In this document: positions 6,165 through 26,433 of the stretch, in pieces
Layout of the letters: each line of letters opens with the position of its first letter
How positions within the stretch are numbered: the first letter of the stretch is position 1
Virus record (IMG/VR): IMGVR_UViG_3300049491_000481
Coordinates: 1-27,114 of that record
Strand: one strand, 5' to 3'
Length of the DNA stretch: 27,114 nt
Source of the DNA: a virus
Position numbers and translations under genes: made by a program
The notes under the pieces: model-generated
What the model was told of the DNA's origin: nothing
Databases searched by the model: none
Seen by the model: the letters and a program-made list of their open reading frames with translations, nothing else

Positions 6165-9100
6165 CTGTGATTCAACCTTGTCCGCTGGTTCATTGCCGCG
6201 TGTAGCGCAGAACCGTTACGCATAAAGAGTTCAGCAACGCTGGCCGCGTCAACGGCGTGGATGATAAATGTATCACCACCACCGCCCATATTTTTTTGCT
6301 GCTCCTTGGTCTGGATCGATACGCGCTCACCCTTGGATGCTTTGAAGGCTACGATGTTCTGGTCAACACCACCGCGTCCATCGACCATAAAGCTACCACC
6401 GGCCGCAAAGCCAAGAAGACCGCCGCCTGATCCGATACCGCCGCCACCAAATAGGCCAATCATGATCTGCTTCGCGAGGTAGTCGGTCACCGCCTTAGTA
6501 ATGGCATGATAGAAGTCTAGCAAGACATCCTTGGCGCTCTTGGTTCCGGTTACCAGACCATAGAGGGCATCGCTGATGCTGCTCTCCATAGCGCTCGTCA
6601 CAGTGCTCATAAAACTCTTCCAAGCTTGGCCGCTTGCTGTTACAGAGTCAATGACTGCTGCGCTCCCCTCTTGAAGCTTGGCGCGGATCGCCTCTAGCTT
6701 GGCGATGTCGGCATTCGCCGCTTCTGGAGACAAGACGCCTGTGTTGGAAAGACCCTGAATGCGTACAATCTCTTGGGTGATTTGGTCAAGCAGCTTTTGG
6801 ATTTCATCTGTCTTTTGCTGAACCTTTGCTGCTTCATCATCCATCCCTGCTTCGCTCAGCATGCTATTCACAGACTGAGTAAGACTGTCTATCTTTACTT
6901 TTGCTGCTTCAGCAGCATTGTTAGACCGGGCCTCAGCCCGAGCGAGTTTGTCGGATGCGTCGGCAGCATCCTTCTTTGCCTTTGTTTGCTTTATGTATGG
7001 CTTATCATCAACGTGTTCTGTGACAAGCTTCTGAGCAGCAGCATACTCTGCTTCCAGTTCAGTAAGGTGCGAAGTTATCTCTGCCCTTTGCTCATCAGTG
7101 AGATTGGCGTTTTCAAGCGATGTCTTGTATTCATCGACGCGATCACGAAGCAACTCAAGTTGCTTGGTAAGAGTTGCTTGGTTCTCAAAGGACTGCGGTA
7201 TGGATGTTGAGAACTCTGTGATAGAATTCTTGACCTTGTCGAACTCGTCAGCGACATTGCCAAGCTTGACCGATCCAATGCGTTTCGCTTCACTCTCGAC
7301 TTGTGCTGCCAGCTTATTAAGGTTTTGGGCATATTCTTCAAATAGACCTTGCTTTACAAGATCGCCAGATGCCATTGAGTCGTCAATGCCCTTCTGAGCA
7401 ATGGCCATCTGCTCAGATATTGTCTGCCCATACTCCATAATCTTTGTGAGGGCTTCTTGCTGGCTATCATAAATGACCTTGCCAGTCTGACCAAAGTCAA
7501 CCTCAACCTTGGCTAGGCTCTTATGGATATTCTCTGATAGGCTTGATAGCGGATCAGCCCCTTGTGCGGCATCAACCTTACTTGTCTGCTCATTCAGGTT
7601 ATCAAAGAATTTGTTTACGGCATTAAGGTTCTCTTTCGCCTTGCTGCCGACATTGGCAATCCCATCACCAATCCGGTTAATGTTGTCTGGAAGATCACCC
7701 TTGAGATCATTGTTGGCGGTGTGCGCTATGTCACCAAGAACACCAAGGCTGCCAGACATATCTTCGAGCAGCTTCTTTTGCGCTTCCCCATATAGTTCAT
7801 TAAAGCTTGGAAGTTCAGTTCCAAACTTTGTCGGGTCAAATAGGTTCTTGACAAATGCGCCAAGAGTGGCGAACATTGACATGACGTCAATGACAAACTT
7901 AGCAATCTCCGCTCTTGCCGCGTATGTTGCGCCTATGGCTGCGCCTGCCAGCGCACCCTTTGGGCCGAAGGTATAGAAGCCAATCACACCACCGATAACT
8001 GCGGAGCTACCTATGGAGCTACCCATAGCTGCCGTGAACAGTTCCTGTACAGTCGCGAGGAAAGCCCCGGTTGCAGCTGAAGACTTTGCAAGCTCATCAC
8101 TAAAGGCGGCATAGGCAGCGCCAAGAGCAATTCCTTTCGTTCCAAATAGAACGAAGCCTAGTATGCCACCTCCAACAATCTCAGCAGGCATCGATCCAGT
8201 AACATGAGCGACTGCTGTTGCTATATTGCCTATTGTAGTGATAAGGTTCTGCGCCGGTACAATTGCGGCCGCAATCCAACGTGCTGTCTTCTCGAAGCTT
8301 TGCCAGATTTGATCAATCCAAACAACACCAGCTGGTGTGTCAAGGAAAGAAATAAACTCGTACATCTTTGTTGTCGCTAGCTGTACGAGCGCCGTAAACT
8401 TATGCATTATGCCGCTGTTGTTGAGCAGCTGATCGGCTACGCGAGTGAAAGCAGTATCCAACTGCGCCAGTGCGCCACGGAATGTGCTTATGAACTTAGT
8501 AGCATTTCCTCCATATACTTTTTCAGTCAAGTTAATGAACTTGTCGAAGAAGTCAGTAAAGGCAATCTTGCCCTTACTCACCTTATCAACAAATTCGCCG
8601 ACCGTCATGCCCATTGACTTAGCGGCAATACGCATAGAGGTTGGCATTGCTTCACCCAACTGCTGGCGAAGCTCTTCCATAGACACAGTGCCTTTACCGG
8701 CCATCTGCGTGATAGCATAGATGCCACGCTTGAACTCTTCAGAGGATGCGCCAAACGAAGCGAAGGCATCCATCATAGTCCGAAGCGGGCCATCACCATT
8801 GGCGCCAGAGATAGGCTCTATACCTGCTGACTTTAAGCGAGTGAAGGACTCAGTAATTGAGTCAAGGCTGAACGGGACATTTTTTGCTAGTTCAAAGACA
8901 TTCTTGATTGAATCTTGTGCAGCATTTACGCCACCAGACAGGGTTGCCATCCGTGTACGGAACACTTCCATATCCACGCCACGATTGAAGAAGTCTCCAA
9001 ACTTCTTGCCGACAGCAACGGCAGTTATCCCGAGGGCAATCAGGTTAGCGCTAATCCCGCGCATCTGAAGGTCCATGGAATTGAAGCCGGAACGCATATT

Positions 9101-9268
9101 AGAGAACATCCCAGTAGCACTGTTGTTGAACCGGGATAGGGAATTGTTTGACTGATTAAATGTATTGCTCATCCTGCTGGCAGCTTGGTTGAGCTGCTGC
9201 TGCAGATGATTGAAATTGTTTATCGCTTGATTGATCTGTACAGCGACATTAATAGTTACGTCAGCCAT
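6161..9268 (-). CDS. Tape measure protein
   Basis: 1035 residues from the ATG at 9268. It sets tail length, fills the tail tube and is ejected ahead of the DNA. The first 60 residues are heptad-rich (INQAINNFNHLQQQLNQA). A classic tape-measure N-terminal domain follows (ELAKNVPFSLDSITESF, MAGKGTVSMEELRQQLGEAM, KGKIAFTDFF). Two glycine/alanine hydrophobic stretches (around GGGILGFVLFGTKGIALGAA and SAVIGGVIGFYTFGPKGALA) could cross membranes on ejection. Long charged coiled-coil stretches come next. The C-terminus is of the lambda gpH type (MESSISDALYGLVTGTKSAK, GFAAGGSFMVDGRGGVDQNI). The frame can be extended to a TTG at 9292, but the ATG at 9268 overlaps the frameshifted chaperone stop by 8 bases and follows AGGGCGG, so I prefer it. 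Confidence 0.93.
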   Translation of the reverse strand: MADVTINVAVQINQAINNFNHLQQQLNQAASRMSNTFNQSNNSLSRFNNSATGMFSNMRSGFNSMDLQMRGISANLIALGITAVAVGKKFGDFFNRGVDMEVFRTRMATLSGGVNAAQDSIKNVFELAKNVPFSLDSITESFTRLKSAGIEPISGANGDGPLRTMMDAFASFGASSEEFKRGIYAITQMAGKGTVSMEELRQQLGEAMPTSMRIAAKSMGMTVGEFVDKVSKGKIAFTDFFDKFINLTEKVYGGNATKFISTFRGALAQLDTAFTRVADQLLNNSGIMHKFTALVQLATTKMYEFISFLDTPAGVVWIDQIWQSFEKTARWIAAAIVPAQNLITTIGNIATAVAHVTGSMPAEIVGGGILGFVLFGTKGIALGAAYAAFSDELAKSSAATGAFLATVQELFTAAMGSSIGSSAVIGGVIGFYTFGPKGALAGAAIGATYAARAEIAKFVIDVMSMFATLGAFVKNLFDPTKFGTELPSFNELYGEAQKKLLEDMSGSLGVLGDIAHTANNDLKGDLPDNINRIGDGIANVGSKAKENLNAVNKFFDNLNEQTSKVDAAQGADPLSSLSENIHKSLAKVEVDFGQTGKVIYDSQQEALTKIMEYGQTISEQMAIAQKGIDDSMASGDLVKQGLFEEYAQNLNKLAAQVESEAKRIGSVKLGNVADEFDKVKNSITEFSTSIPQSFENQATLTKQLELLRDRVDEYKTSLENANLTDEQRAEITSHLTELEAEYAAAQKLVTEHVDDKPYIKQTKAKKDAADASDKLARAEARSNNAAEAAKVKIDSLTQSVNSMLSEAGMDDEAAKVQQKTDEIQKLLDQITQEIVRIQGLSNTGVLSPEAANADIAKLEAIRAKLQEGSAAVIDSVTASGQAWKSFMSTVTSAMESSISDALYGLVTGTKSAKDVLLDFYHAITKAVTDYLAKQIMIGLFGGGGIGSGGGLLGFAAGGSFMVDGRGGVDQNIVAFKASKGERVSIQTKEQQKNMGGGGDTFIIHAVDAASVAELFMRNGSALHAAMNQRTRLNHR

Positions 9269-9889
9269 TACCGCCCTGCTTGGAAGCCTCAACCAGCATA
9301 GTGTTCTTGGTGTCGCGTATCACATCAAACGCCGACAAAAGGTAAGCGTCACTTTCCGCAATACAAGAATCATCTGGTGTACGATACATTAGCCATCCGT
9401 CCTTAGTCAACTCGTAGCACTTGTTGAACCAAGACAGATAGTAGGCGCAGCCGAAGTGGTACTCAGTACGCAGGCCGGATATTAGGTCAGAGGCATTTGG
9501 AGCCCCTGACCACCGAACTGCTTTCCTCAGTTTCCCTCGTCATTATCCCCCGGTGTAGAGATTGCTGAAAGCTTCAACATGATCTCCATGGCAAGGCCGA
9601 TGAATGCTGAGTACCTCACGATCTTCGGAAGGTCAACAACCCCATCATCATCTTCCAGGTTAAACAACTTGGCATACTTCTCCAGCAGGCTACCAGCAGT
9701 CAAGAGAACTTTCGCCGCGTCTGGCTTGCCATCTGCTGCTACGTTTGAACGCATTGCATCAAGCATTGCCATAAGATCGGCAAAGTCCATAACACCCAAG
9801 GTCACACTCACCTGCTCGGCTTCCGGCAATTTGTCGTTGCCATTCCAAGTCGGAATGAATGTGACCTGTTTTGTGAACTTAAATTTCAT
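9261..9889 (-). CDS. Tail assembly chaperone, frameshifted long form (gpGT-like)
   Basis: A -1 slip at 9530-9536 avoids the TGA at 9527 and enters a frame that stays open for 89 codons to a TGA at 9261-9263, giving a 209-residue fusion. The extension reads LRKAVRWSGAPNASDLISGL, then TEYHFGCAYYLSWFNKCYEL, and ends EASKQGGNG. It has no suitable start of its own in the first part and would otherwise leave a 260-base gap in a genome with essentially no gaps. The product stops inside the tape measure start (ATGGCTGA). In lambda and many other siphophages the rare GT form bridges the tape measure to tail tube subunits; the same role is inferred here. The evidence is direct reading of both frames; no expression data are available. 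Confidence 0.85.
9527..9889 (-). CDS. Tail assembly chaperone, short form (gpG-like)
   Basis: 120 residues, encoded between the tail tube gene and the tape measure gene, exactly where siphophages place the tail assembly chaperone that coats the tape measure during tail polymerisation. It starts MKFKFTKQVTFIPTWNGNDK, is acidic and helical in the middle (FADLMAMLDAMRSNV, VVDLPKIVRYSAFIGLAMEI), and ends STPGDNDEGN. The start ATG at 9889 has a strong purine-rich leader (AAGGAAGGGG) upstream. The last two sense codons, with the base before them, form the slippery heptamer GGGAAAC, and the stop TGA follows immediately. Most ribosomes should make this short form. The family is too divergent for me to name from sequence alone, so the call rests on position, size and the frameshift. 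Confidence 0.82.
   Translation of the reverse strand: MKFKFTKQVTFIPTWNGNDKLPEAEQVSVTLGVMDFADLMAMLDAMRSNVAADGKPDAAKVLLTAGSLLEKYAKLFNLEDDDGVVDLPKIVRYSAFIGLAMEIMLKLSAISTPGDNDEGN
9530..9536 (-). other. Programmed -1 ribosomal frameshift site GGGAAAC
   Basis: On the minus strand the heptamer reads G GGA AAC in the chaperone frame (codons GAG GGA AAC TGA). This is the canonical X XXY YYZ arrangement, so both tRNAs can re-pair after slipping back one base. The stop codon directly follows the heptamer and would favour pausing there. I did not find an obvious strong stem-loop just downstream by eye. Confidence 0.85.
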
Positions 9890-9908
9890 TTGTGCCCCTT
9901 CCTTGAGG

Positions 9909-10973
9909 TTAGTAGGTTGAAGTTACGTTCGTCAAGAACGCCTCAATCATATAGAGTGAGGTAGTATCCCGTTCTGCCTTCGCGGTGAACGAGGTCTGGA
10001 GACGATTGGGTCCGCCAATCGGGGTGCTCCAGGTCAAGTACTTCATCTGCGGGATGTCGATCTGCAGAGAAGGGAAAAATGCTGACGACGGATTGCCGAG
10101 AACGCTTGTGCTCCTGGTATCGCGCAGAGTTGCCCGCAGTGTGCGATTTTCATAAGCAATGAAGGCATCATATTCCGCCTGTGAGCGGAACGACAATGTG
10201 CCCTTCATATTGATGCGCCGGAAGTCATTGACCTGATACTCAGCATTGTACTTGGTACCATCAAGAAGGACAACACCTTCAATCGGAACATTCAAGTTAA
10301 TGTTGAGGCTCTCAAAATTGGTATTCGACACCAAGTTGGAGAAGCCAGTCTGGCCAGAGGACACCTGGATAGATGCCTGATCCCAAATCCACGGCTTGGA
10401 GCCAGCAATCTGAGAGAGCGCAGAAATGCTGGAAGTACGGGCAAACCGCTCAACCTTGCGAGCCATGATGTGAACAGTGGCGTCAATAAGCTGGTTGGCT
10501 TGAATGTTCCACTCAATGCCATAGGCGCACATCCCCTGATAGAAGAATGCTGAGCCCAAGTCCTTGTAGACCATCATGGTATAGGCCGGCAAGAAGTTCT
10601 TGTCGTCAACTGCAGTCTGGATCGGAAGGAAGCGATGCTGAATAGCACCAAGAGCGCCCATCACGTTCGGATTGGCATTGACTGAACCAACGGCGCAAAG
10701 TACGGTACCAGATGACTGACCAAAGACAGCACGCATCCAATCGCCAATAGCATTCGGATCAGGAACAATCTTGATATCGCCAGCAGCACTCTCCAAGCCT
10801 TTGTGCGACGGCGGAGCATCCTTGTAACCGGTGATGGAGCCTTCCTCCAATTCGGAAATGGTATGCTCGATAGATTCACTGACGAAGTTGTGCCAGCGTG
10901 TAACACTCTGGACGCTCAGGTACAAGGAGTCAGAGCGCGTCAGAGCTATTTGGGAACCAGTACCAGAGGGCAT
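9909..10973 (-). CDS. Major tail tube protein
   Basis: 354 residues. It polymerises into the tail tube. It begins MPSGTGSQIALTRSDSLYL, an opening common to a phage tail tube family, and ends with the beta-rich segment TSFTAKAERDTTSLYMIEAF. Its length is larger than the roughly 200-250 residues of simple tube proteins, which suggests an added surface domain. A repeated internal pattern (NINLNVPIEGVVLLDG, RRINMKGTLSFRSQAEYDAF) resembles the duplicated tube fold. The Shine-Dalgarno AGGAGAAGG just upstream of the ATG is strong, as expected for an abundant protein. The gene lies immediately before the chaperone pair and after a putative tail terminator. The call is confident for role and moderate for the precise family. 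Confidence 0.85.
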   Translation of the reverse strand: MPSGTGSQIALTRSDSLYLSVQSVTRWHNFVSESIEHTISELEEGSITGYKDAPPSHKGLESAAGDIKIVPDPNAIGDWMRAVFGQSSGTVLCAVGSVNANPNVMGALGAIQHRFLPIQTAVDDKNFLPAYTMMVYKDLGSAFFYQGMCAYGIEWNIQANQLIDATVHIMARKVERFARTSSISALSQIAGSKPWIWDQASIQVSSGQTGFSNLVSNTNFESLNINLNVPIEGVVLLDGTKYNAEYQVNDFRRINMKGTLSFRSQAEYDAFIAYENRTLRATLRDTRSTSVLGNPSSAFFPSLQIDIPQMKYLTWSTPIGGPNRLQTSFTAKAERDTTSLYMIEAFLTNVTSTY

Positions 10974-11438: not shown

Positions 11439-11943
11439 GCCAATTCATCCTTATGATCCTCTCAACCCACCGGTCAACAATAGGTCCAGAAATCTTGAGT
11501 GACTCTTCACGTGTTGGAAATATTCTTCGCGGAGGAATGACTGATTCACTTCTGCTATTGAATACTCCAAGACCGCTCGCGGCCATTACTGGCCCCTTAA
11601 CTGCTGGAGAGGTGAACCCCTCTTCATGCATTTGGATAGACCATCCAGTTGGCCGGCCACTAAAGTAGACGGTTGCTGTTCCGGCAGAGAGGTTTGAGCG
11701 AAAGCGGATTTGGTCACGGATTGGAAGAAGCGCCTTGCGCCGGCCAGTCGCCAACTTTGTCGACTTGGCAAGAGGAGCCCAACTCCCACGGCCTTGTGTG
11801 GTTATTGTCTCCTTGGTATAGAGCATCAAGCCCTTACCTATCTCGTCAAGAAGCACCTTACGTGATCGCATAGAAGCCTTCAAACCATTTACAGCATGGT
11901 TGAAGTTCTTCATATCGACATTGACTTTAATTCCCGGCTGCAT
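11431..11943 (-). CDS. Phage virion morphogenesis protein (head-tail/tail completion)
   Basis: 170 residues from the ATG at 11943. The sequence follows the virion morphogenesis family pattern (P2 gpS / Mu gpG-like): a helical N-terminus, then GRGSWAPLAKSTKLATGRRK, the strand SAGTATVYFSGR, a conserved histidine in IQMHEEGF, and IPPRRIFP near the end followed by a C-terminal helix. Family members act at the head-tail joint or in tail completion. A TTG 6 bases upstream (11949) is possible, but the ATG has GAGAG at a suitable distance. The N-terminus overlaps the DUF1320 gene by 17 bases and the C-terminus overlaps the next gene by 8, so the three connector genes are translationally linked. Confidence 0.8.
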   Translation of the reverse strand: MQPGIKVNVDMKNFNHAVNGLKASMRSRKVLLDEIGKGLMLYTKETITTQGRGSWAPLAKSTKLATGRRKALLPIRDQIRFRSNLSAGTATVYFSGRPTGWSIQMHEEGFTSPAVKGPVMAASGLGVFNSRSESVIPPRRIFPTREESLKISGPIVDRWVERIIRMNWHD

Positions 11944-12415
11944 CTTCAACTCTCAGATCGAGGTCTGCCTGTTGACGCTGAATATCAGCCTGCTGCTCAT
12001 CTGCCGGAAGCACTGGCGAGAACACAGAGTGGTATCCCTGCGTAGTGCTCCAAGCTTCCTGATCCCCGGTTGTAGACAGCGAAGCAGAACCGATGCTAAG
12101 CGTGCCAGAGTCAACCATGGACAACATCTCAAGTGCCCGATCATACCGGGGTTGGAAGAAGTCAGGCTTGCCCGGCAGATGATCAGTGAGCATGTTGAAG
12201 ATGGCAATGTCTGCCGTAACTTGCGTTATGAAGGCAGGCACAACCGTAAGAGGAACTGCATAGCGGCGCCCAATACGAGCATCAACGAAACTCTCAGCAT
12301 CACGTATGAAGATGGAGGATACATTGACTGACGACACCTGCAAGTCCTCAGAGCCGATAAGCGTAATGATCGGACGATACCGGCTGACAACATCATCAAA
12401 GACGGCATAGCTCAT
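11927..12415 (-). CDS. Head-tail adaptor, DUF1320 (Mu gp36-like)
   Basis: 162 residues. It has the usual DUF1320 opening MSYAVFDDVVSRYRP, a helical body typical of head-completion adaptors (SSIFIRDAESFVDARIGRRY, TQVTADIAIFNMLTDH, FFQPRYDRALEMLSMVDSG) and a glutamine/aspartate-rich tail. In Mu-like heads the homologue sits between portal and tail. The Mu-like portal and protease elsewhere in the block support the assignment. The start overlaps the stop of the small membrane protein as ATGA at 12412-12415. The leader directly upstream lacks a strong Shine-Dalgarno, so coupling is likely. Confidence 0.82.
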   Translation of the reverse strand: MSYAVFDDVVSRYRPIITLIGSEDLQVSSVNVSSIFIRDAESFVDARIGRRYAVPLTVVPAFITQVTADIAIFNMLTDHLPGKPDFFQPRYDRALEMLSMVDSGTLSIGSASLSTTGDQEAWSTTQGYHSVFSPVLPADEQQADIQRQQADLDLRVEDAAGN

Positions 12416-12600
12416 ATATTGACTCCGCTGAGCAGCCCACTCTTTATAAGCAGGAGAAGGATTGCAAGAAGGATCGCCAAAGCAAATGCTATTTGCTTGA
12501 ACGTCCCATCAATCATCGGAAGATTGTCGAGAAGCAACTTGAACAACCCGAGGCAAGCCCCGATGATCAGCACCCAAACGATTAATGCTATAATACTCAT
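12412..12600 (-). CDS. Small two-helix membrane protein (holin-like candidate)
   Basis: 62 residues with two hydrophobic segments: residues 3-24 (IIALIVWVLIIGACLGLFKL) and about 37-56 (IAFALAILLAILLLLIKSGL). They are separated by a short polar loop LLDNLPMIDGTFKQ. This layout, including the proline-methionine loop, resembles a family of small phage membrane proteins often encoded beside head genes. It also resembles short class II holins with two transmembrane helices. No endolysin is adjacent, and the spanin-like genes are 6 kb away, so a holin role is uncertain. It overlaps the glycosyltransferase fusion stop as ATGA and has a good GGAGGT leader 10 bases upstream of the ATG. An alternative is a membrane anchor or accessory for the neighbouring transferase. 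Confidence 0.72.
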   Translation of the reverse strand: MSIIALIVWVLIIGACLGLFKLLLDNLPMIDGTFKQIAFALAILLAILLLLIKSGLLSGVNI

Positions 12601-15467
12601 TGCCAGTAACCTCCAGAACGTTTCTCAATCTGCTCCCTGATTGCCTTCTCAGCAATCTCGGTCGCTTCAGTGGAACTGGTGAATACTCCTTGATATTCAG
12701 CCACCATGCCCTCAAGTTCAATTCGCACCTTGACCTCGTGACCTTGGTTGAGGACGCGGTTTGCTTGAGAGTAGTAGTGGAGGCTATTCTGCGGTCCACT
12801 ACCAATGAACAAGAACTCATCCTTGTTCGCCCTAAAGAAGTCAACTGCTTGCTTGGCAATTGCCATTCCTTCGTCAACCCGCTTCTGCTCCATCATCCAT
12901 GCCATCTGGTGGAACAGGTCGCGGAACCAGAGAAACTTGCCGATCTTTCGATCAGGGTAGCACTTGCGATCCCAAACGAGCAAAGGCCAATTCCTAGCAA
13001 AGCGATCACGCCGGACACCTTCGTTGACGTATCCAGTATGACCAATGTCGATTGAATTAAGTAGCATAGTGAATCCAGGTCCACCATTGAAGCCAACTTC
13101 TGCATGCTCGTGGACCTTTCCAAAGAAGGTAAACTTGCCGTTGTTACGATAGACACGCGCTGGTTTGTCTAGCTGCGTCGGTGCTCCGCGCGGCTCTACT
13201 GTAAAATGATGCTGGTGTACAGCATAGCTGTCGAAAGCATTGTCCTTGAGATAGCTTGCAAGATCGCCTCCAGAAAGATACTCATCAGTATCAATCCAAA
13301 ATACCCAATCAGTCTCAAGGCCCATAACAGAAGCGTTTCGAGCATCATCAAATCCGAACTTGTCCACTTCAATCTTAGGCACATCGACTATGGCAAAGTC
13401 AATGTGTGGATAACGCGACATATACTCTTCTGCCAGCAGCCGCGTCTTGTCCTTGCTTGGCCCGAGGGCGATCCTGATTTGGCTTGCATGATCAACAATC
13501 GATTGGAGGCATCGTACAATATATGCTTCTGCATCCATCGCAATGATTGCAAAGCCGACGCTCTGCCTGAACCTTGCCATCTTGGCTTTCATGAGCGGAT
13601 CAACCAACTTGGCTGGCTTCTGATCAGCAAAGTACATCATCACAATATTGCCGACAATACGTCCATCACGTGACTTCGCGTGCGGAAGGAAAGACATCTG
13701 TTGAGCACTCTTCGTATCATACATAATACGAAGCATGTCTTTGGTGATGTGCCAGATATGCGCGCGCCAAGCCCACTGACTCGGGTTATTGACTAGGCCA
13801 TCCCATTCCCAGGGCCCGTGAGGCACGCTGATGATCATCATTCCGCCCGGCCGCACTTGAGCCTCGACGCGGTCAGACACTTCCCATGGCTTGAGGGTGT
13901 GCTCAAGAACCTCAGCGATAATGGCGGCATCAAACTTCTCTGATACTGCCTCTGGCCAGTTCTCAGTTTCACCAAGGTGGAATTCAACATTGGTGATGTT
14001 CGCTTCTGCAGCATACTTCTTGCAGAGCTCAACATTGGTTTCCACAATGTCAATACCGACAAAGCGCTTATTTGGAAAGTCTATCGCCAGTTGGAGGATG
14101 ATCGGCCCTTCAGCGCATCCGTACTCTAACACGCTATTAAGCACGTGTTGATCGGAGGATAGTAGGCGCTTGATCTCCTCGTAGCGTGCTGAGCCCTTGA
14201 GAGTGCGCATGCCCCGGCGTTCGGGAACACCTTTCGCCTCCTCCAGTTCATATATGCCCTTGTAGTGCTCAGAGATAGTCTTATCCCCGGTTATGAACGG
14301 ATAGTATTTCTTGATGTGATCCTGCCAATAGGAAACGCCATACTTATCGGCCACCGCCTTCGCAGCGAATACATCACCATCCATAATGAGGGACTTGGCG
14401 CCGCTGTAAGGCGACGGGCGACGTGCTACAAAGCGTTCTTCCCAATCCAAGGCTACCGGACCCCATCCTAGGTCTTTGCGCTTTAAGCACCGCCTAGCGA
14501 TGGCTGCAGAGTAAGTTTCGTCTGTAGTAACCCGCCGCACCGAAGCGGCGAAGTGTTCACAGAAAGCATCCGATCCAATGTCTTCCTTCCCCCATAGGAC
14601 GGAATGGCCGCAATCTTGGATTGTTTCCGGCAAAGCACCAATCGGCGTATAGATAATCGGCAACCCTTCAGACATTGCCTCGCGAGCGATGATGCAAGAC
14701 ACTTCCTCGAAGATTGTAGGATAGACATATGCGGCCGCAGTCCTCATCATTTGGCGAAGCTGCTTCTGCGTCTTGGCTCCAACAATCTCTACATTCGGCA
14801 GAGCCTTGGCCATAGTGAAGACATGGTTGTAGTAGTCAGTCATGTGCGGCGGCCAGTTGTCGTACATCGCCACCTTAAGCGTGTACTCTGGCAGCCGGCT
14901 CATTATGCCACCAGGACGGACAAGATTGATCAGGCCACGTTCTGGACGGGCCGCAAATAGCAATTCATTCTTGGACCGGGGGATGTCCATCAACTTGCCA
15001 ACATCAAAGATGCCGTTACGGGTGGCCCAGATATGGGAGAGTGGATAGCCAATGATCTTGTGAAGCTGCTGGCGGTGGAATTCTGAGACGGTCCAAATCT
15101 CGTCAATGTTCCAGGCAAAGCTCATCAGCGGTCCCATGGTAGCGTAGGTAGCCAAATCATGGCACCATAGGACATTCTTCTTGCTCTGATTTGGGAAGCT
15201 CAGGAAGTTTGGATCGCGGGACGCTATGATGATGTCTACTTCTGACGTCGTGATGAAACCCTGGTACTGAGAGATTGGCGACCAACGGACGCCGATGTCG
15301 TCTATGCCTTCCCACTCACTATTGCAGAATACCGTCACCATGTGCCCTTGGAGACGCAGTTCCTTGGCCATACATATAGCAGCCGTCTCACTACCACCGA
15401 GTGATTTGATATCTAGCGTATTTGGACCAGCTGCCATGCCACCAAACACAATTACAACTTCAGACAT
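12597..15467 (-). CDS. Fusion enzyme: GT4 glycosyltransferase - SAM methyltransferase - GT2 glycosyltransferase
   Basis: 956 residues, three enzyme domains. Residues 1 to about 345 are a GT-B fold GT4 transferase: LGGSETAAICMAKEL near the start, WCHDLA, IWTVSEFHRQQL, RNGI, and the signature E-x7-E (EEVSCIIARE, Glu255 and Glu263) with EGLPIIYTPIGALPE. About 395-620 is a class I methyltransferase: motif I VLEYGCAEG (446-454), acidic GIDI (Asp473), EVLEH (519-523), VRPGGMMIISVPHG. About 635-900 is a GT-A fold GT2 transferase: FAIIAMDAEAYIVRCLQSI, FDDARN, DxD in FWIDTDEYL (Asp726, Asp728), FGKVHEH, GHTGY. All three look intact. The gene lies between the major capsid gene and connector genes and overlaps the next as ATGA. 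The substrate is unknown: a capsid or tail glycan is likely, DNA or host surface sugars are alternatives. Confidence 0.93.
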   Translation of the reverse strand: MSEVVIVFGGMAAGPNTLDIKSLGGSETAAICMAKELRLQGHMVTVFCNSEWEGIDDIGVRWSPISQYQGFITTSEVDIIIASRDPNFLSFPNQSKKNVLWCHDLATYATMGPLMSFAWNIDEIWTVSEFHRQQLHKIIGYPLSHIWATRNGIFDVGKLMDIPRSKNELLFAARPERGLINLVRPGGIMSRLPEYTLKVAMYDNWPPHMTDYYNHVFTMAKALPNVEIVGAKTQKQLRQMMRTAAAYVYPTIFEEVSCIIAREAMSEGLPIIYTPIGALPETIQDCGHSVLWGKEDIGSDAFCEHFAASVRRVTTDETYSAAIARRCLKRKDLGWGPVALDWEERFVARRPSPYSGAKSLIMDGDVFAAKAVADKYGVSYWQDHIKKYYPFITGDKTISEHYKGIYELEEAKGVPERRGMRTLKGSARYEEIKRLLSSDQHVLNSVLEYGCAEGPIILQLAIDFPNKRFVGIDIVETNVELCKKYAAEANITNVEFHLGETENWPEAVSEKFDAAIIAEVLEHTLKPWEVSDRVEAQVRPGGMMIISVPHGPWEWDGLVNNPSQWAWRAHIWHITKDMLRIMYDTKSAQQMSFLPHAKSRDGRIVGNIVMMYFADQKPAKLVDPLMKAKMARFRQSVGFAIIAMDAEAYIVRCLQSIVDHASQIRIALGPSKDKTRLLAEEYMSRYPHIDFAIVDVPKIEVDKFGFDDARNASVMGLETDWVFWIDTDEYLSGGDLASYLKDNAFDSYAVHQHHFTVEPRGAPTQLDKPARVYRNNGKFTFFGKVHEHAEVGFNGGPGFTMLLNSIDIGHTGYVNEGVRRDRFARNWPLLVWDRKCYPDRKIGKFLWFRDLFHQMAWMMEQKRVDEGMAIAKQAVDFFRANKDEFLFIGSGPQNSLHYYSQANRVLNQGHEVKVRIELEGMVAEYQGVFTSSTEATEIAEKAIREQIEKRSGGYWQ

Positions 15468-15468
15468 C

Positions 15469-15484
15469 AGAAAGTGCCCTTTCT
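15469..15484 (-). promoter_or_regulatory. Hairpin abutting the start codon of the fusion enzyme gene
   Basis: On the minus strand the sequence AGAAAG GGCA CTTTCT forms a perfect 6-bp stem with a 4-base loop. Its 3' end is one base from the ATG at 15467. The only Shine-Dalgarno-like string (AAAGGG) is in the 5' arm and loop. Folding would therefore hide the ribosome site or change its distance to the start. A role in lowering or timing translation is inferred. Confidence 0.6.
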
Positions 15485-15492
15485 ATGGAGGC

Positions 15493-15528
15493 GATGGACG
15501 GAACGAGGGGCACCACGCTCCGTCCATC
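15493..15528 (-). terminator. Inverted repeat downstream of the major capsid gene (possible attenuator)
   Basis: Ten-base perfect arms GATGGACGGA (15493-15502) and TCCGTCCATC (15519-15528) enclose a 16-base loop. No T-run follows on the minus strand, so it is not a classical intrinsic terminator. It may be a partial terminator, an RNA-processing site or a 3' stabiliser for the capsid message. Confidence 0.5.
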
Positions 15529-15553
15529 TACCCATTGCGCGCTTGGGGTCCGA

Positions 15554-15575
15554 TTACCAGTGTGCCCCCTGGTAA
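15554..15575 (-). terminator. Second inverted repeat just after the capsid stop
   Basis: Seven-base perfect arms TTACCAG and CTGGTAA flank an 8-base loop, 5 bases beyond the capsid stop codon. With the 10-bp repeat and the start-codon hairpin it makes three inverted repeats within 107 bases, in one of the few gaps of the late block. A drop in expression between the capsid and enzyme genes is inferred. Confidence 0.5.
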
Positions 15576-15580
15576 CTAGA

Positions 15581-16543
15581 TTACGTCGAGCAGAGTGAGC
15601 CGACGCGGATCATCAGATCGCTAGACACGATCTTCTCATCCTGGTAGTAGCTCACATCAATCTCATACTTCTTCCGGCGCGGGTCAAACGGATAACGCTG
15701 AACGGCCATTGGAGTTCCAAACAACGGCGAAGTCCACCGGAAGGCCTGAGCCCAAGTATCGGCAAACTGTCCGTTCAAGGTATCGATGTAGCCCATCCAG
15801 AGATTGCCGTTGCCGGCCCAGACGTCTGCGTAGGTGCCATCCTGCGGGTCTTTTTCCACCGCGGTGTTGACTTGGACTGTCGGCATCAAAACGTTCTTGA
15901 TTTCCAACAGATTGCCGATCTGCTGAGCCGTAACCACGCCGCCCTTGTCTCCAAAGAGAATGTCGCGGAACTGATCATTGACTCGCAGCTTGGTTAGTAC
16001 ATTGCGCGGCAAGACCAAGGTATTCGGCATCTTGCCGGTGATATCCTTGAAGCTATCGCGCCAGCCAAGAAGGTCGGTATATGCGGTGCGAGCCGCAGAG
16101 TTCCAACCAGAGGTAGCGAGGAAGATGGTCGCCACGTTTGCAGAGGTCACAGCAAGCTGCGCAACCCGCATTTCGTAGTCCATCATCAACCGGTCAGTTA
16201 CGTACAGGGCATTGTTCTGTGCCCAGCTGAGTACTGCGTCGGCATTGACTTCATCCTCAACAGGCCATTCGGCACCCAGCGAATAGTTCTTCGCATAGTA
16301 GGTGTCGGACGAAACGGTGAAGCTGACTTTCTTGCTGAGTCCCATCGGTGCGCGGGCAGTAATGCCAGCTTCATGACGGAACCATTCCTTTGCAGCAAAC
16401 TTCCAATACATGTTCGACTGTTTGTCGACATTGATGATTGGAAGCAACTGCTCCGCAATCATGCCCTCTGTGCGCCGGCCAACAACAACGTTGGAAAGCG
16501 GCACATCGATGTGAAGTTCGCGGCCAGTGCTGGGTGCGGGCAT
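15581..16543 (-). CDS. Major capsid protein
   Basis: 320 residues, beginning MPAPSTGRELHIDVPLSNVV. It follows protease/scaffold and decoration genes, the usual place for the major head protein. It has the feel of an HK97-fold capsid protein of the coat family seen in Mu-like heads: an extended N-terminal arm (GRRTEGMIAEQLLPIINVD), a helical spine with YEMRVAQLAVTSAN, and the segments TGKMPNTLVLPRNVLTKL and VWAGNGNLWMGYI. The C-terminus is a beta-rich axial region (FDPRRKKYEIDVSYYQDEKI). Scaffold cleavage sites cannot be read. The ATG at 16543 has a very strong leader (AGAAGGAGG) as expected for the most abundant protein. Role confidence is high from context and moderate from sequence. Confidence 0.85.
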   Translation of the reverse strand: MPAPSTGRELHIDVPLSNVVVGRRTEGMIAEQLLPIINVDKQSNMYWKFAAKEWFRHEAGITARAPMGLSKKVSFTVSSDTYYAKNYSLGAEWPVEDEVNADAVLSWAQNNALYVTDRLMMDYEMRVAQLAVTSANVATIFLATSGWNSAARTAYTDLLGWRDSFKDITGKMPNTLVLPRNVLTKLRVNDQFRDILFGDKGGVVTAQQIGNLLEIKNVLMPTVQVNTAVEKDPQDGTYADVWAGNGNLWMGYIDTLNGQFADTWAQAFRWTSPLFGTPMAVQRYPFDPRRKKYEIDVSYYQDEKIVSSDLMIRVGSLCST

Positions 16544-16558
16544 CTATGTGCCTCCTTC

Positions 16559-16978
16559 TTACGGCGTGGCCTGAGCGATTGAACCAGACACAACGTTGGC
16601 AATAAGCGTCGGCTTAATGTCAACAGTCGTGATAGCACCAGAGGCTGCGGCAGACATAATCACGCCGAAGTCAACGATGCCGGATAGATCGCCGGAGTTA
16701 ATCTTGACGACCCAGCCGCCCGAAAGGACGCGGCAATGATCACCGAGCGATACGGTGCCGCCGGCAATTGCCTTCGATTCACCTTCCATCGCCACGCTAG
16801 CAAACTCACCGGCCTTTGGCTGGTTCTGGAGAATACCAGTGCCAGTGCCAAGCGGTGCTAGACGCACAAGTCCCGGTGCCGGTGATCCGGCAACGAGTTC
16901 AACAACCTTGAACTTGGAAGACGACAAGTCCACCGAGGAAACAAAGCTGAAGCATTCGAGTTCACGCTGATAAGCCAT
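16559..16978 (-). CDS. Capsid decoration (cement) protein, DUF2190-like
   Basis: 139 residues, small, beta-rich, glycine/alanine/serine/valine-rich and low in aromatics. It lies between the protease/scaffold and the major capsid gene, the classical place for a gpD-like cement protein. The pattern VRLAPLGTGTGILQNQPKAG and GGTVSLGDHCRVLSGGWVVK resembles DUF2190-type decoration proteins, which stabilise expanded heads and cover capsomer junctions. There is no signal peptide or membrane helix. The leader GTAAGGAGGG is a strong ribosome site. It could be an acceptor for the nearby glycosyltransferase fusion because it would be exposed on the head surface, but that is speculation. Confidence 0.75.
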   Translation of the reverse strand: MAYQRELECFSFVSSVDLSSSKFKVVELVAGSPAPGLVRLAPLGTGTGILQNQPKAGEFASVAMEGESKAIAGGTVSLGDHCRVLSGGWVVKINSGDLSGIVDFGVIMSAAASGAITTVDIKPTLIANVVSGSIAQATP

Positions 16979-16989
16979 CGGCGCCCTCC

Positions 16990-17535
16990 TTACGACAGCA
17001 CAAGATAGCGCTGCTTCAAGTCAGCATCGCCAGCAAGCACCTTATTCAAAGCCTGGGAATAGGTTGTCTTGCCGGTAGTGTCGGCTTCAACCAGTGCCTT
17101 GGCCTTATGGTCAACTTCGTCAGCAGCGTTGGCGAACTTCTCATTCTTATTCTCGCCATCACCCTTTTCAGAAGTGTCCACAACTTTGCCGGAAGCCGCA
17201 AGGAATTCCTTGAACATGACGGCCATGGACTTCTCATCCTTGCCAAACATGATCTTGGTGTCCTTGCTGGACAGGGCGGCAAGAGCGAAGTCGCGCTGCT
17301 TCGGCAGCAACTTGCCCTCTTTGATAGCCGCGTCAACAAGCGCGACTGCTTCCACCTGAGCTGCCGCCGCTTTGACGGTTTCGAGCTCAGTCACGAGGCC
17401 GTCCTTGGCTTTGGTGACGACATCCAACTTCGTAGTCAGATCGGTCACCTGCGCCGTGAACTTGGCTTCGTTGTCGGAAACAGCCTTTGTCACCGCAGCA
17501 GCAATCAGGCTATCAACCTGTTCCTGCGTAAACAT
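16990..17535 (-). CDS. Possible separate scaffold protein from an internal start
   Basis: Inside the protease gene an in-frame ATG at 17535 (MFTQEQVDSLIAAAVTKAV) lies exactly at the boundary between protease and scaffold parts and would give a 181-residue scaffold. An AAGGA lies about 10 bases upstream, within GAAAAGGAAACTAAAGGC. Lambda (Nu3 within C) and Mu (Z within I) make their scaffold from such nested starts, so this is a reasoned parallel. No direct evidence of use exists in the sequence beyond the ribosome-site-like string and the domain boundary. Confidence 0.55.
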   Translation of the reverse strand: MFTQEQVDSLIAAAVTKAVSDNEAKFTAQVTDLTTKLDVVTKAKDGLVTELETVKAAAAQVEAVALVDAAIKEGKLLPKQRDFALAALSSKDTKIMFGKDEKSMAVMFKEFLAASGKVVDTSEKGDGENKNEKFANAADEVDHKAKALVEADTTGKTTYSQALNKVLAGDADLKQRYLVLS

Positions 17536-18060
17536 GCCTTTAGTTTCCTTTTCGGTCGTCAGCTCAGTCGGCTTGATTGCCGCAGAGAACTGATGTATTG
17601 GGCCAGATTTAAAGAGAGCATTTGCAAGGCCAGCCAAATCCTTGACTGCCGGCATTTCTACTCCCAGAAGTGATACTGCCGAAAGCACGCGGTTGAATTT
17701 CTTCCCCTTGTGCTCGATCCCGGCATCCCAGTACACTTCCGCGCTCACATTGTGGTAACGGCCTTGACGTATAAGGTCAATGAGCGCCTCAGGGACATTT
17801 GCGATATCAGCGAACAACTTTCCACCAATACGCCACACCTTCTCGATCCAACCAAGCGCCGGAATGCCATCCTTCTGGCCAAACCATTTCTGGGCATCCG
17901 TATGTCCGAGCTTGAGGTGCGGTTTGACAATGTTACTGCCATTCAATTCATTGAAGGCGGTAACCATATCGTCAAGGTCTGCTTCGGTAATGTTAATCTT
18001 GCCGGACATAGCATTATGCTGACCAGCACCGAAGATTTCTAGGTTGGAGATACTCGGCAT
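16990..18060 (-). CDS. Capsid maturation protease with C-terminal scaffold (Mu gpI-type)
   Basis: 356 residues from the ATG at 18060. The N-terminal half is a Mu gpI-like serine protease that matures the procapsid: the catalytic histidine is in PHLKLGHTDAQ (His53), followed by ALGWIEKVWRIGGKLFADI. The likely nucleophile serine is in YHNVSAEVYWD (Ser106), and SAVSLLGVEMPAV follows. From about residue 176 the sequence becomes a charged coiled coil (VTDLTTKLDVVTKAKDGLVT) typical of an internal scaffold, ending in an acidic/lysine-rich segment. A GTG at 18069 is in frame, but the ATG is preceded by AGGTG at the right spacing. It precedes decoration and major capsid genes in standard order. Confidence 0.88.
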   Translation of the reverse strand: MPSISNLEIFGAGQHNAMSGKINITEADLDDMVTAFNELNGSNIVKPHLKLGHTDAQKWFGQKDGIPALGWIEKVWRIGGKLFADIANVPEALIDLIRQGRYHNVSAEVYWDAGIEHKGKKFNRVLSAVSLLGVEMPAVKDLAGLANALFKSGPIHQFSAAIKPTELTTEKETKGMFTQEQVDSLIAAAVTKAVSDNEAKFTAQVTDLTTKLDVVTKAKDGLVTELETVKAAAAQVEAVALVDAAIKEGKLLPKQRDFALAALSSKDTKIMFGKDEKSMAVMFKEFLAASGKVVDTSEKGDGENKNEKFANAADEVDHKAKALVEADTTGKTTYSQALNKVLAGDADLKQRYLVLS

Positions 18061-18106
18061 GATTGACACCTATAAGTGATTTTATTTTGTACGTAAAGCC
18101 CAATGT

Positions 18107-18775
18107 TCAAGGTGGCGACATGTGGCAGGTCGCGCACAATGAGAATGGCTTGATCTGGAGTGAACCGGGGTCATCCCAGACAGTACCAACGACGCCTTTG
18201 TTCTCGGCATCGAGACAGCAGGTTGTGATTTTGCCGTCCTGTAGGACAACGCCCCACCCGGATCGAAGATACTCGCACACCAACTTGGGCGCCGACACGT
18301 ACCAGTTCGGAACCTGCCCGGCCCAATCGAAAGCCCCGGTCACAAACTGATCATTCAGGTATAGAAGAATGCCATACTTCTTGGCGATCTGAACTGCTTT
18401 GCCTGCCATCTCAGGCCTATGCAGCGAGATCATAACTCCAACGTTCAACTTCTGGCACTCTGCCGCTATCTCCTCGGTGAATGTCGGAAGGCCATTGGTC
18501 GAGAAAACGATTGGCATATTCGCATTCAAGGCACGGGCAGCCCTCAGCATGTCCAGGAACTGAGGATGCATGGTTGATTCGCCAATGCCTGTAAACGATA
18601 GCTCTCTTTGATACCCTACTTCCAGAAAGAATTTCACCCACGATAGTGCCTTCTCGAATGTCTCCCATTTCATATCCTCCTTTGGGCGCTGCATCTTTGG
18701 GTGCGGGCAATACTGGCACCGAAGATTACAGCGCGTGGTTACTTCAATCTGCTTGATCTGCACAATATGCGTCAC
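18107..18775 (-). CDS. Radical SAM enzyme with SPASM/twitch-like C-terminus
   Basis: 222 residues. The radical SAM cluster motif is TTRCNLRCQYCPHP (Cys16, Cys20, Cys23, a C-x3-C-x2-C), which binds a 4Fe-4S cluster and cleaves S-adenosylmethionine. A GGE-like SAM contact is FTGIGEST (63-66), and FSTNG follows at 91-95. The C-terminus has Cys167, then GKITTCCLD (Cys186, Cys187) and CATC (Cys214, Cys217), a pattern like a twitch or short SPASM domain holding an auxiliary cluster. Such enzymes often modify peptides or sugars. The start is a GTG overlapping the previous stop as GTGA, with AAAGGTGAT upstream. It lies in the virion operon between the spanin pair and the head protease. The substrate is unknown; unlike QueE, it has an auxiliary-cluster-like tail. 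Confidence 0.9.
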   Translation of the reverse strand: MTHIVQIKQIEVTTRCNLRCQYCPHPKMQRPKEDMKWETFEKALSWVKFFLEVGYQRELSFTGIGESTMHPQFLDMLRAARALNANMPIVFSTNGLPTFTEEIAAECQKLNVGVMISLHRPEMAGKAVQIAKKYGILLYLNDQFVTGAFDWAGQVPNWYVSAPKLVCEYLRSGWGVVLQDGKITTCCLDAENKGVVGTVWDDPGSLQIKPFSLCATCHMSPP

Positions 18776-19388: not shown

Positions 19389-20413
19389 AGTGGGAACCTC
19401 CTTGAGGATACGCCAGGATAGTTTCTATTCAATTTCGGATATGTCCGCGTCAGCCCGCCGCCACCAGAACTGACAACGCCAAGGGCAATTGTTGCTGAGA
19501 ATGCTGAATTGATAATTGATGATTCATCAATTCTTAGTCCAATTGCAGCCGTTGCCGACTCAGAGCCTTGGAATGTCGCAGACAGGCCAGTGTCCATGAT
19601 GGATGCGCTTGCTGAGAATGATCCAGACAGCTTTGCATCCATAAGCACTTGGCCGCTGGATAGAGTGTACACTGCGGCAGTTGCTGACATTGAAGTAGAT
19701 GAACGAGCATCCTTGGCAACATATTTGTATTCATAAAATGGACATATGAAGCAAGCACCATCAGTTGATACAGCCTGCATTGTCGGGCCAAACGATTGGT
19801 TAGAGCCATCCGCGGTGACAACCTTATATTGGCTAATCTGTTCCTGACCAGATGTTGTCGTTCCAATTCCAACCGACTGCGCTGTTGACCAACTACCATC
19901 CAGTGTATCTGAGTCGCCAGTCCTTGTTCCATTATACTCGCGCCCGAATATGCCAATTACAAGGTGCCCAGCCTGAACCACTGAAGCAGCAGTTAGCGTG
20001 CTGTTAGTTCCAGTAGTAACTTGCGGAATGACATGAACAAGTGTATAGCCACTTGTTGGAACAATCTCCCAAAGAGTAACGACGCCAGCCACTATGTTCG
20101 GGCTAAAGTTCATTGTGATGCTGTCGCCGGTCGTCAGTGTTCCAACATCTTGCTCTGTATAATATATGCGCGTTACAGTGCCAGCATTCGCAGCGCCAGG
20201 GTCAAGAAGGGCGCTTCTTGAAGAAATGTAAGTATTGCCTTTAGTATCGCTTATGCTGGAAAATGGATCAGCACCATTAGTGCCGCTATTGTCGTATGTG
20301 AATGCAACCCAAGCCCTACTTCCTGCTGCAAAGTTTCCAGAAGGAGCAATGGAATATGATGCCGCAGAGGCATTCTGCGTATTGGTCCCCCTGGCTGTTA
20401 CTGAAATTGCCAT
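19385..20413 (-). CDS. Virion-associated beta-rich protein (putative fibre/appendage)
   Basis: 342 residues, beginning MAISVTARGTNTQNASAAS. It is serine-, threonine-, alanine- and glycine-rich with alternating strand patterns (AAGSRAWVAFTYDNSGTNG, GDSITMNFSPNIVAGVVTLW, GHLVIGIFGREYNGTRTGDS). The last 120 residues contain repeats of small residues (SATAAVYTLSSG, SGSFSASASIMDTG, SAFSATIALGV) and end in a basic, proline/tyrosine tail TRTYPKLNRNYPG. This composition is typical of phage surface or fibre proteins. It is the last of the host-contact cassette and overlaps its neighbours by 1 and 4 bases. No enzyme motif, signal peptide or membrane helix is visible. The exact place in the particle is unknown. 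Confidence 0.7.
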   Translation of the reverse strand: MAISVTARGTNTQNASAASYSIAPSGNFAAGSRAWVAFTYDNSGTNGADPFSSISDTKGNTYISSRSALLDPGAANAGTVTRIYYTEQDVGTLTTGDSITMNFSPNIVAGVVTLWEIVPTSGYTLVHVIPQVTTGTNSTLTAASVVQAGHLVIGIFGREYNGTRTGDSDTLDGSWSTAQSVGIGTTTSGQEQISQYKVVTADGSNQSFGPTMQAVSTDGACFICPFYEYKYVAKDARSSTSMSATAAVYTLSSGQVLMDAKLSGSFSASASIMDTGLSATFQGSESATAAIGLRIDESSIINSAFSATIALGVVSSGGGGLTRTYPKLNRNYPGVSSRRFPL

Positions 20414-20826
20414 CAGTCAAACCCCATTGAGATTGAACCGGGGTTGAATATGAGAATTTCATTTGAATTGACGTTCACGAGGCTCCTGATGCTGAATGCC
20501 CCTATAAAGCTTGCTGATCCAACATCTGTGTTAGCATCAAACATCAGAAATGAGTCAAGTTGCATGCTTCCTGAGAATGTTGGGATGGATGGGTTGGTAA
20601 TTTGAAGTGTTGCCGCAAACCATTTGAGCCCGCCACTCGCTGGAAGAAAGTCTCCAGATATCACCTTGAACAGGCCAGCACTGTTTACGTGATTTGCTGT
20701 ATAGCTATTGACATTGGAAGAGTCGGCATAGCCAGTCTGATACCAAAGGGTATTTGGGCGCGTGTAGCTTGCTCCACCAATAAAGTGGTCAAGCAACTTG
20801 TTCTTGATGCCAATGGACAGAGGCAT
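20413..20826 (-). CDS. Putative tail fibre-family protein, paralogue 2
   Basis: 137 residues from the ATG at 20826 (MPLSIGIKNKLLDHFIGGAS); the frame continues further upstream, but that part only shadows the previous gene. The NKLLDHFIGGASY opening matches the adjacent gene's NKMLDHLFGGATY, and both have the same length, so this is a tandem, diverged copy. The family occurs widely in phages and is often annotated as tail fibre protein. This copy has lost the usual 'wG' segment and ends NEILIFNPGSISMGFD. It starts two bases after the previous stop and ends as TGATG into the next gene. Its ribosome site is weak, so coupling is likely. Confidence 0.75.
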   Translation of the reverse strand: MPLSIGIKNKLLDHFIGGASYTRPNTLWYQTGYADSSNVNSYTANHVNSAGLFKVISGDFLPASGGLKWFAATLQITNPSIPTFSGSMQLDSFLMFDANTDVGSASFIGAFSIRSLVNVNSNEILIFNPGSISMGFD

Positions 20827-20828
20827 GA

Positions 20829-21242
20829 TCAGTCCAACTGTAGAGTTAGCGAGCCCACACCAATAATCGGCGCATCGCCGCTGATGATATTGCGGGCGGT
20901 CGCTATCGATCCGACACCGACGAACGCTCCAAGGCCGGTTGAGGTTGGGTTGTCCCAAACCGTTACCCATCCAACTAAGCCCCACGATCCCGAAGCGGTC
21001 GGGAACGCAATAGTGCTGACGTTACGCTTGACGCCGCCAGATGCGGCATTAAAGTTGTTCGAGCTATTGACGACTGCAACGCGGGAGTAATTGCTGCCTG
21101 ATGGCTCAGCAAGCCCAGCCGCAGTGTCAAGAGGATCGGCAGTGCTCAGACCAATCCAAAGCGTAGCAACCTGAGAATAGGTGGCTCCACCGAACAAGTG
21201 GTCAAGCATCTTGTTTTCATAATTGTCAGAGAAGCCAACCAT
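20829..21242 (-). CDS. Putative tail fibre-family protein, paralogue 1
   Basis: 137 residues. It begins MVGFSDNYENKMLDHLFGGA and follows a widespread phage pattern: TLWIGLSTADPLDTAAGLAE, then PSGSNYSRVAV, FNAASGGVKRN, IAFPTASGSWGLVGWVTVWD, and a terminal ISGDAPIIGVGSLTLQLD. Members are usually annotated as tail fibre or virion proteins; their fold is compact and beta-rich. The leader AAGAGGTGAATT before the ATG is a strong ribosome site. The next gene is its diverged copy. A difference in receptor or glycan contact between the copies is possible but not shown. Confidence is good for the family and moderate for the role. Confidence 0.8.
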   Translation of the reverse strand: MVGFSDNYENKMLDHLFGGATYSQVATLWIGLSTADPLDTAAGLAEPSGSNYSRVAVVNSSNNFNAASGGVKRNVSTIAFPTASGSWGLVGWVTVWDNPTSTGLGAFVGVGSIATARNIISGDAPIIGVGSLTLQLD

Positions 21243-26359: not shown

Positions 26360-26424
26360 TGTTAGACAATTATTAGTGATAGGGCCTATTTAGTGCTAGA
26401 CTTATCTAGGTAGTTGGATAATAC
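26360..26424 (+). promoter_or_regulatory. Two tandem promoter-like sequences with operator-like palindrome
   Basis: The octamer TGYTAGAC occurs twice, at 26360-26367 and 26394-26401, 34 bases apart. Each could serve as a -35 region: TAGACA (26363-26368), 18 bases, TATTTA; and TAGACT (26397-26402), 16 bases, TAATAC. The second overlaps a palindrome CTAGA CTTA TCTAG (26396-26409) that could be an operator. Both face the gene at 26464. Confidence 0.5.
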
Positions 26425-26433
26425 TCTCTCTTA

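Follow-up and report, generated by a model that had tools for sequence, protein, structure and literature searches.

The head operon and its fusion gene

The window analysed here is the whole 27,114-nt stretch (positions 1 to 27,114) of IMGVR_UViG_3300049491_000481, a metagenome-derived viral contig from IMG/VR. Its head genes are read from the minus strand. A BtrN-like radical SAM enzyme with a conserved Cys set (18107..18775, minus; PF04055 2e-13; BtrN 2.7e-15) precedes the head maturation protease (16990..18069, minus; phrog_976 8.6e-36), a head decoration-like protein (16559..16978, minus; phrog_673 7e-8) and the major capsid protein (15581..16543, minus; phrog_1005 4.4e-47). A Mu-like portal gene and the gene of a putative terminase are located further upstream; for the terminase, position is the guide, its family phrog_5902 carrying no function. 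In Arthrobacter phage Ottawa, the gene in the same place as the decoration-like gene is annotated as head fiber protein, a likeness by position. The radical SAM gene is a facultative accessory: of 61 comparable loci, 17 carry it and 44 do not, and in 6 it stands between the capsid and enzyme genes. Its product may modify either the sugar or its acceptor.

Directly after the capsid gene, across a 113-nt gap, lies the gene of a 956-aa protein (P0001; 12597..15467, minus) that starts with ATG at 15467 and whose stop codon ends at 12597. An earlier note, made from the sequence alone, had already placed this gene behind the capsid gene with its stop overlapping the following one; both statements hold, and the strand, which it did not state, is minus. 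The overlap is 4 nt (ATGA) and involves a 62-aa ORF (12412..12600, minus) with two hydrophobic, TM-like segments, for which no family was found. This ORF has an ATGA overlap at its other end as well, with the next virion gene, which encodes the head-tail adaptor gp36 (Mu Gp36 family; 11927..12415, minus; PF07030 4.5e-17; phrog_195). Stop codons are abundant on the plus strand of 12597-15467.

Three enzyme domains follow one another in the chain, as the earlier note had read from its motifs, and Pfam recognises them in the same order: GT group 1 (PF13692, 2e-8), methyltransferase (PF13847, 6.6e-19) and GT2 (PF00535, 6.5e-5). The N-terminal GT4 domain of GT-B type (14433..15467, minus; residues 1-345) carries GGSE (24-27), HD103-104, RPERG174-178 and the pair E255-x7-E263. 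The class-I SAM methyltransferase domain (13593..14327, minus; residues ~381-625) contains G450 and G454 within EYGCAEG (448-454), E519xLEH523 and H570. The GmaR/SunS-like GT2 domain of GT-A type (12954..13580, minus; residues ~630-838) has D726xD728E729, GKVHEH783-788 within FGKVHEH (782-788), and H810xGY813. The remaining helical tail (12597..12953, minus; residues 839-956) is modelled by AlphaFold2 as helices at 841-905 followed by two strands and a helix. Structure prediction, which had been proposed as a check, folded all parts in one confident single chain (pLDDT 89.6, pTM 0.88). A search for hydrophobic TM segments in the fusion enzyme found none.

The class of each domain could be assigned with some precision. 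PF13692 and PF00534 both score above cut-off on the GT4, and Foldseek matches it to GlgM, PimA and BshA; the methyltransferase belongs to class I by its PF13847 match and its two glycines, which are invariant or nearly so. A GT-A fold, the DxD, GxxHE and HxGY motifs and domain-long homology place the GT2 in the GmaR/SunS group. Profile searches against solved structures returned GmaR (2.9e-32), SunS (8e-22) and ThuS (3e-19) at the top, with the whole catalytic region aligned, while the other parts matched more distant methyltransferases and MshA-like GT4s. With the AlphaFold2 model as Foldseek query, SunS ranked first (5.6e-14), followed by retaining GT4s, including the three named above; the exopolysaccharide enzyme HepE was also among the close GT4 structures. 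The SunS equivalog TIGR04195 gives the fusion enzyme only 22.5 bits against a cut-off of 350, so the enzyme would work like the SunS subfamily and be no member of it; the GmaR/SunS similarity of the GT2 is at superfamily level.

Catalytic residues are near-invariant in 110 fusions: GGSE, HD, RPERG and ExxxxxxxE in the GT4, the SAM glycines and ExLEH in the methyltransferase, and DxDE, GxxHEH, HxGY and RN in the GT2. E255 is E in 93 and D in 17 of the 110, and E263 is E in 108. The loss of catalytic residues, named by the earlier note as grounds for abandoning its reading, was thus not seen. Wherever complete, relatives are encoded in one ORF of about 940-1090 aa, with few exceptions. That the window comes from a metagenome-derived contig could favour an assembly error or a decayed pseudogene; this reading is already contradicted by the recurrence of such single ORFs with retained catalytic residues in more than 100 independent contigs and by the confident single-chain model, and its probability is negligible. 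For the same reasons the fusion is not a product of chance.

Linkage to the capsid gene among relatives

Single-sequence scans of viral and genome collections with the enzyme gave no match, and detection of relatives needed alignment-based scans. A capsid-protein scan of viral contigs yielded 50 loci and a radical SAM protein scan 3 more; GT4, methyltransferase and GT2 lie downstream of the capsid gene in nearly all of them, at capsid identities down to ~30%. In the capsid-first set, reaching the same identity, a homologous GT4 was found downstream in 60 of 60 distinct informative loci, a count whose main bias is that 19 loci with less than 5 kb downstream and no match were set aside as uninformative. 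Full fusions make up 45 of the 60, which answers the architecture search near capsid genes suggested earlier; 15 are partial, mostly by contig-end cuts, and none lacks the enzyme. The sole complete GT4-only ORF in this set is that of L019.

Scanning with an enzyme alignment detected 407 relatives, and the 80 best were taken further. Of the 78 viral loci (L133-L210), 69 have a capsid gene of this family upstream in the same orientation. Eight of the other nine hold less than 3 kb upstream, and in L200 the enzyme gene is inverted with respect to the capsid gene. The fusion is therefore genetically linked to the structural genes. In relatives the enzyme gene frequently abuts the adaptor gene that follows it, or overlaps with it, and some relatives carry extra GTs, methyltransferases, SDR or carbohydrate-binding modules in the same slot. 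The locus had first appeared as an isolated oddity. The intact three-domain enzyme in a head operon stands, and its gene turns out to be conserved in a large lineage of uncultured phages.

Divergence of the enzyme was compared with that of the structural genes over 56 non-redundant loci. Mean identity is 0.39 for the GT4, 0.40 for the GT2, 0.39 for the major capsid protein, 0.35 for the portal and 0.32 for the methyltransferase; conservation of the two glycosyltransferase domains matches that of the capsid protein and exceeds that of portal and protease, whereas the methyltransferase is less conserved. Spearman correlations of pairwise distances with those of the capsid protein were 0.65 (GT4), 0.55 (methyltransferase) and 0.64 (GT2), compared with 0.71 for capsid protein and portal. 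The enzyme co-diverges with the capsid protein about as well as the portal does, indicating the behaviour of a core gene and not of swapped cargo.

Contigs with homologues over most of the enzyme length include some with the assignments Desulfobacterales, Deltaproteobacteria, SAR324, Myxococcales, Zixibacteria and Poribacteria. The capsid gene ahead of the fusion in L064 is of a different family, the SU10-type SU10_MCP (PF17236, 1.5e-52), and in the Myxococcales loci L059 and L062, where no capsid gene was recognised, the fusion is preceded by small proteins of no known family. Four loci (L069, L072, L073, L207) encode GT4+GT2 versions, so the methyltransferase may have been inserted later, or these versions may have lost it. 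An apparent GT4-only protein in L068 was rejected as this architecture, its GT4 being joined to PBP1B. Among 50,697 records of cultured phages, no place covers 80% of the fusion enzyme. Cultured phages with distant capsids (24-26% identity) lack the enzyme, judging by the one examined, Roseobacter phage RDJL Phi 1, in which no gene annotated in this way adjoins the gene of the distantly related capsid; glycosylation would thus not be a general requirement of that capsid fold. A 767-aa protein behind the capsid gene of Arthrobacter phage Ottawa was considered as a possible cultured relative and rejected, as it has no GT domain.

The leader RNA

The gap from the capsid stop to the enzyme start codon (15468..15580, minus) encodes a structured leader (RNA fold z = -3.76 versus shuffles) that is conserved in close relatives. 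Three hairpins are recognised in it. H1 (15554..15575, minus) exposes the loop GGGGGCAC, a mimic of the ribosome-binding site; H2 (15493..15528, minus), with a 13-bp stem, has the loop GGTGCCCC, complementary to both the ribosome-binding site and the H1 loop; a small hairpin (15469..15484, minus) beside the start codon carries the ribosome-binding site AAAGGGCAC itself. In 18 close relatives, which include the window and some near-duplicates, a hairpin ends 19-31 nt ahead of the start codon, and pairing of 7-9 bp between its loop and the ribosome-binding region is found in 17, the exception being L003. Seven of these sequences, window included, have the upstream hairpin that directly follows the capsid gene; its loop is a repeat of the ribosome-binding sequence, and in L134 the two change together.

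Covariation was assessed in an alignment of 16 sequences, from which L003 and one near-duplicate were left out. The seven inner pairs of the hairpin are standard in 111 of 112 cells; this proportion is inflated by the hand-picking of sequences for the hairpin, and the both-sided changes (CG to UA in three sequences, GC to AU in one and GC to CG in one) are better evidence. Sliding controls collapse and none of 500 shuffles reaches the observed covariation score, although this control leaves the relatedness of the sequences in place. No Rfam family matched the leader above its gathering score, and the two sub-threshold matches lie elsewhere. TATAAT occurs ahead of the enzyme gene in some relatives, and a sigma-70 promoter was considered there; it was rejected after negative consensus scans in L141 and in the window. 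A terminator-like hairpin follows the capsid gene in L141.

Comparison of these sequences gives good evidence that the leader RNA controls translation of the enzyme. By pairing with the ribosome-binding site, the hairpin loop appears to limit its synthesis, which would suit a catalyst required at much lower copy number than the capsid protein. More tentatively, capsid glycosylation might be an obligate morphogenetic step, with capsid protein and enzyme forming a fixed pair and the H1, H2 and ribosome-binding-site hairpins, competing through one 7-bp pairing, setting the ratio of enzyme to capsid translation; this extension is rather doubtful.

Proposed function and precedents

P0001 is a real, conserved fusion that most likely glycosylates a virion protein. 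It would probably be a soluble, late-expressed enzyme in which the GT2 attaches, the GT4 extends and the methyltransferase caps a glycan. Action on virion proteins in the cytoplasm is the best reading because the GT2 is closest to the protein and peptide glycosyltransferases GmaR and SunS. GmaR is the flagellin O-GlcNAc transferase of Listeria, and SunS and ThuS are peptide S-glycosyltransferases; their acceptors are cytoplasmic proteins or peptides. They share with the fusion the GT2 motifs DxD, R-x-F/Y-R, GxxHE, HxGY and RN, whereas they lack GT4 and methyltransferase domains and are not phage-head genes. Recognition of the flagellin acceptor by GmaR is thought to depend on its TPR region (PMC9638930). 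The helical tail of the modelled fusion would occupy the place of this region, a comparison by position alone.

In the proposed scheme, the GT2 would use a host nucleotide sugar to place the first sugar on a Ser, Thr or Cys residue of a freshly synthesised virion protein; the product of the adjacent gene, the major capsid protein, is the most plausible acceptor. A second sugar would then be added by the N-terminal GT4, and O-methylation of the glycan by the central methyltransferase would form a cap. The benefit may be surface shielding or stability. Acceptor, step order, donors, timing and benefit are all predicted here. The donors are probably host-derived, as an NDP-sugar dehydratase family was found in only 2 of 21 larger contigs. 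The earlier note had imagined that one sugar is added, then a methyl group, then another sugar. That order is not indicated, since the GT2 resembles the enzymes that place the first sugar on a protein, and attachment by the GT2, extension by the GT4 and a methyl cap are more likely. A conserved Ser/Thr/Cys tail of the capsid protein was considered as glycosylation site and rejected: there is no such tail, and the C-terminal Cys of the window's capsid protein is not conserved. Proximity to the capsid gene could also reflect expression timing.

Other targets can be weighed against the same data. If the head operon provided late expression only, the enzyme could modify sugars of host LPS or capsule, for instance to block superinfection or to aid progeny release. 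Surface-polysaccharide pathways commonly use GT4 and GT2 enzymes, HepE-type enzymes are among the close GT4 structures, and serotype conversion by phages is well known. Nevertheless, the fusion has no membrane segment, its GT2 is nearest to protein and peptide glycosyltransferases, and such cargo is usually facultative, whereas none of the informative relatives is without the enzyme. It also stays beside the capsid gene, even when, as in L064, this gene belongs to another family. A host-surface target is hence improbable, and of the earlier suggestion that the enzyme acts during particle assembly or on the host, the assembly-linked glycan enzyme is retained and the host part is weakened. Still less likely is the glycosylation and methylation of modified bases in phage DNA. 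Glycosyltransferases of hypermodifying phages are well established (cited in PMC12619734), but the head-operon position and the alignment of the GT2 with protein glycosyltransferases speak against this target, and thymidylate-synthase-like genes were found in 1 of 21 larger contigs, a count that covers one base-precursor family in contigs that may be incomplete.

Within the preferred reading of virion-protein glycosylation, and compatible with it, the acceptor might be a different virion protein, such as the decoration protein, the adaptor or the tail tube, or else a phage peptide whose maturation involves the radical SAM enzyme. Genes for decoration, adaptor and tail-tube proteins share the operon, mycobacteriophage glycans are found on tail tubes too (PMC12619734), and the radical SAM gene sometimes intervenes between capsid and enzyme genes. 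The capsid gene, however, is the constant upstream neighbour, and the absence of the radical SAM gene from most loci argues against a peptide; such acceptors are possible, though less likely than not.

The nearest functional analogue is A064R of chlorovirus PBCV-1, a 638-aa GT-GT-MT protein acting on the N-glycan of the capsid protein Vp54 (PMC9614988). Like the fusion, it combines two glycosyltransferases and a methyltransferase in a single soluble chain encoded by the virus. It builds and methyl-caps a capsid glycan (PMC9614988), the role proposed here from sequence, and may serve as a working precedent, by likeness without shown homology. It differs in the type and order of its domains (GT-A rhamnosyltransferase, novel GT, methyltransferase), in belonging to a eukaryotic virus, in making the distal glycan part only, and in that chlorovirus GT genes are described as early-expressed. 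The architecture had been thought new. A GT4-MT-GT2 fusion in a head operon indeed appears undescribed in the literature searched, whereas the GT/GT/MT principle for capsid glycans is known from A064R (PMC9614988). In mycobacteriophages such as Che8 and Rita, glycans on the capsid and the tail tube have been linked to glycosyltransferases that the phage encodes (PMC11256854, PMC12619734). These phages have Actinobacterial hosts and no three-domain fusion is described for them (PMC11256854, PMC12619734); the glycosyltransferase genes of the F1 phage Maravista are found close to the 3' end of its genome, unlike the capsid-adjacent fusion. Two BFVD proteins of uncultured Caudovirales (A0A6J5T3W3, A0A6J5M7M7) are large multi-domain GT/MT proteins whose alignments span most of the chain, with low TM-scores of about 0.3 to the fusion model. 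The literature searched, subscription papers excluded, describes neither the GT4-MT-GT2 architecture nor its capsid adjacency or leader RNA, and in the same literature no report joined glycosyltransferase, radical SAM, major capsid protein, phage and head-tail.

The finding is of considerable interest because the enzyme looks like a core gene. Only a few systems with glycosylated phage virions have been reported, and the modification has been regarded as an optional shield. In the present case a single polypeptide, apparently a complete machine for protein glycosylation, behaves as a structural core gene would, across phages with capsids only ~30% identical. The RNA leader makes the dosage of enzyme to capsid directly testable, and the fusion, if it works as proposed, would be a compact tool for cytoplasmic protein glycosylation. 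Glycosylated capsids would then be the rule in an uncultured phage lineage of considerable size, and the data suggest that decoration of the particle with sugars is a routine building step across the group.

Leader RNA of the enzyme gene

The stretch between the capsid stop and the start codon of the fusion gene (15468-15580, minus strand) contains a candidate for a new cis-regulatory RNA in which the loop of a hairpin covaries with the ribosome-binding site of the enzyme gene. The candidate RNA also occurs at loci of other contigs carrying relatives of the enzyme or capsid gene, including L134, L135, L138, L140, L152, L006, L137 and L149, among others. A capsid-proximal hairpin that mimics the ribosome-binding site is present in seven relatives, the window counted among them.

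Genes of the head operon and other window ORFs

Both the enzyme gene and the head-tail adaptor gene are translationally coupled to the 62-aa two-TM-like ORF lying between them (12412-12600, minus strand), and in many relatives the adaptor directly abuts the enzyme gene. The head operon also includes a BtrN-like radical SAM gene (18107-18775, minus strand), which is facultative among relatives; it separates the capsid and enzyme genes in some and forms a tandem pair at L036, L040 and L043. Elsewhere in the window, there are two adjacent paralogous fibre proteins (20413-21242, minus strand). PF23140, the family of Podophage GP4 fiber I protein Gp80, is matched by both of them, but only weakly by the second. 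A 142-aa plus-strand ORF (26464-26892), which has no match in Pfam or PHROG, overlaps a 147-aa ORF on the minus strand (26406-26849).

Unusual arrangements among relatives

Three tandem enzyme copies are found at L207 (1939-10898). Two of them, 694 and 690 aa long, have the GT4+GT2 architecture, and the other, of 973 aa, is GT4-MT-GT2. The Acidiferrobacterales locus L068, where a GT4 domain is joined in frame to penicillin-binding protein 1B (1297-4368) and the capsid gene is split into two ORFs, is a decayed prophage or a chimeric assembly. No recognised capsid gene was found in the Myxococcales contigs L059 and L062, in which the fusion is preceded by three small proteins (8376-9655 and 8467-9974, respectively) that are rich in beta structure and belong to no known family. 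Their low-confidence model (pLDDT 63) gave weak jelly-roll-like matches, and this arrangement possibly represents an undescribed element.
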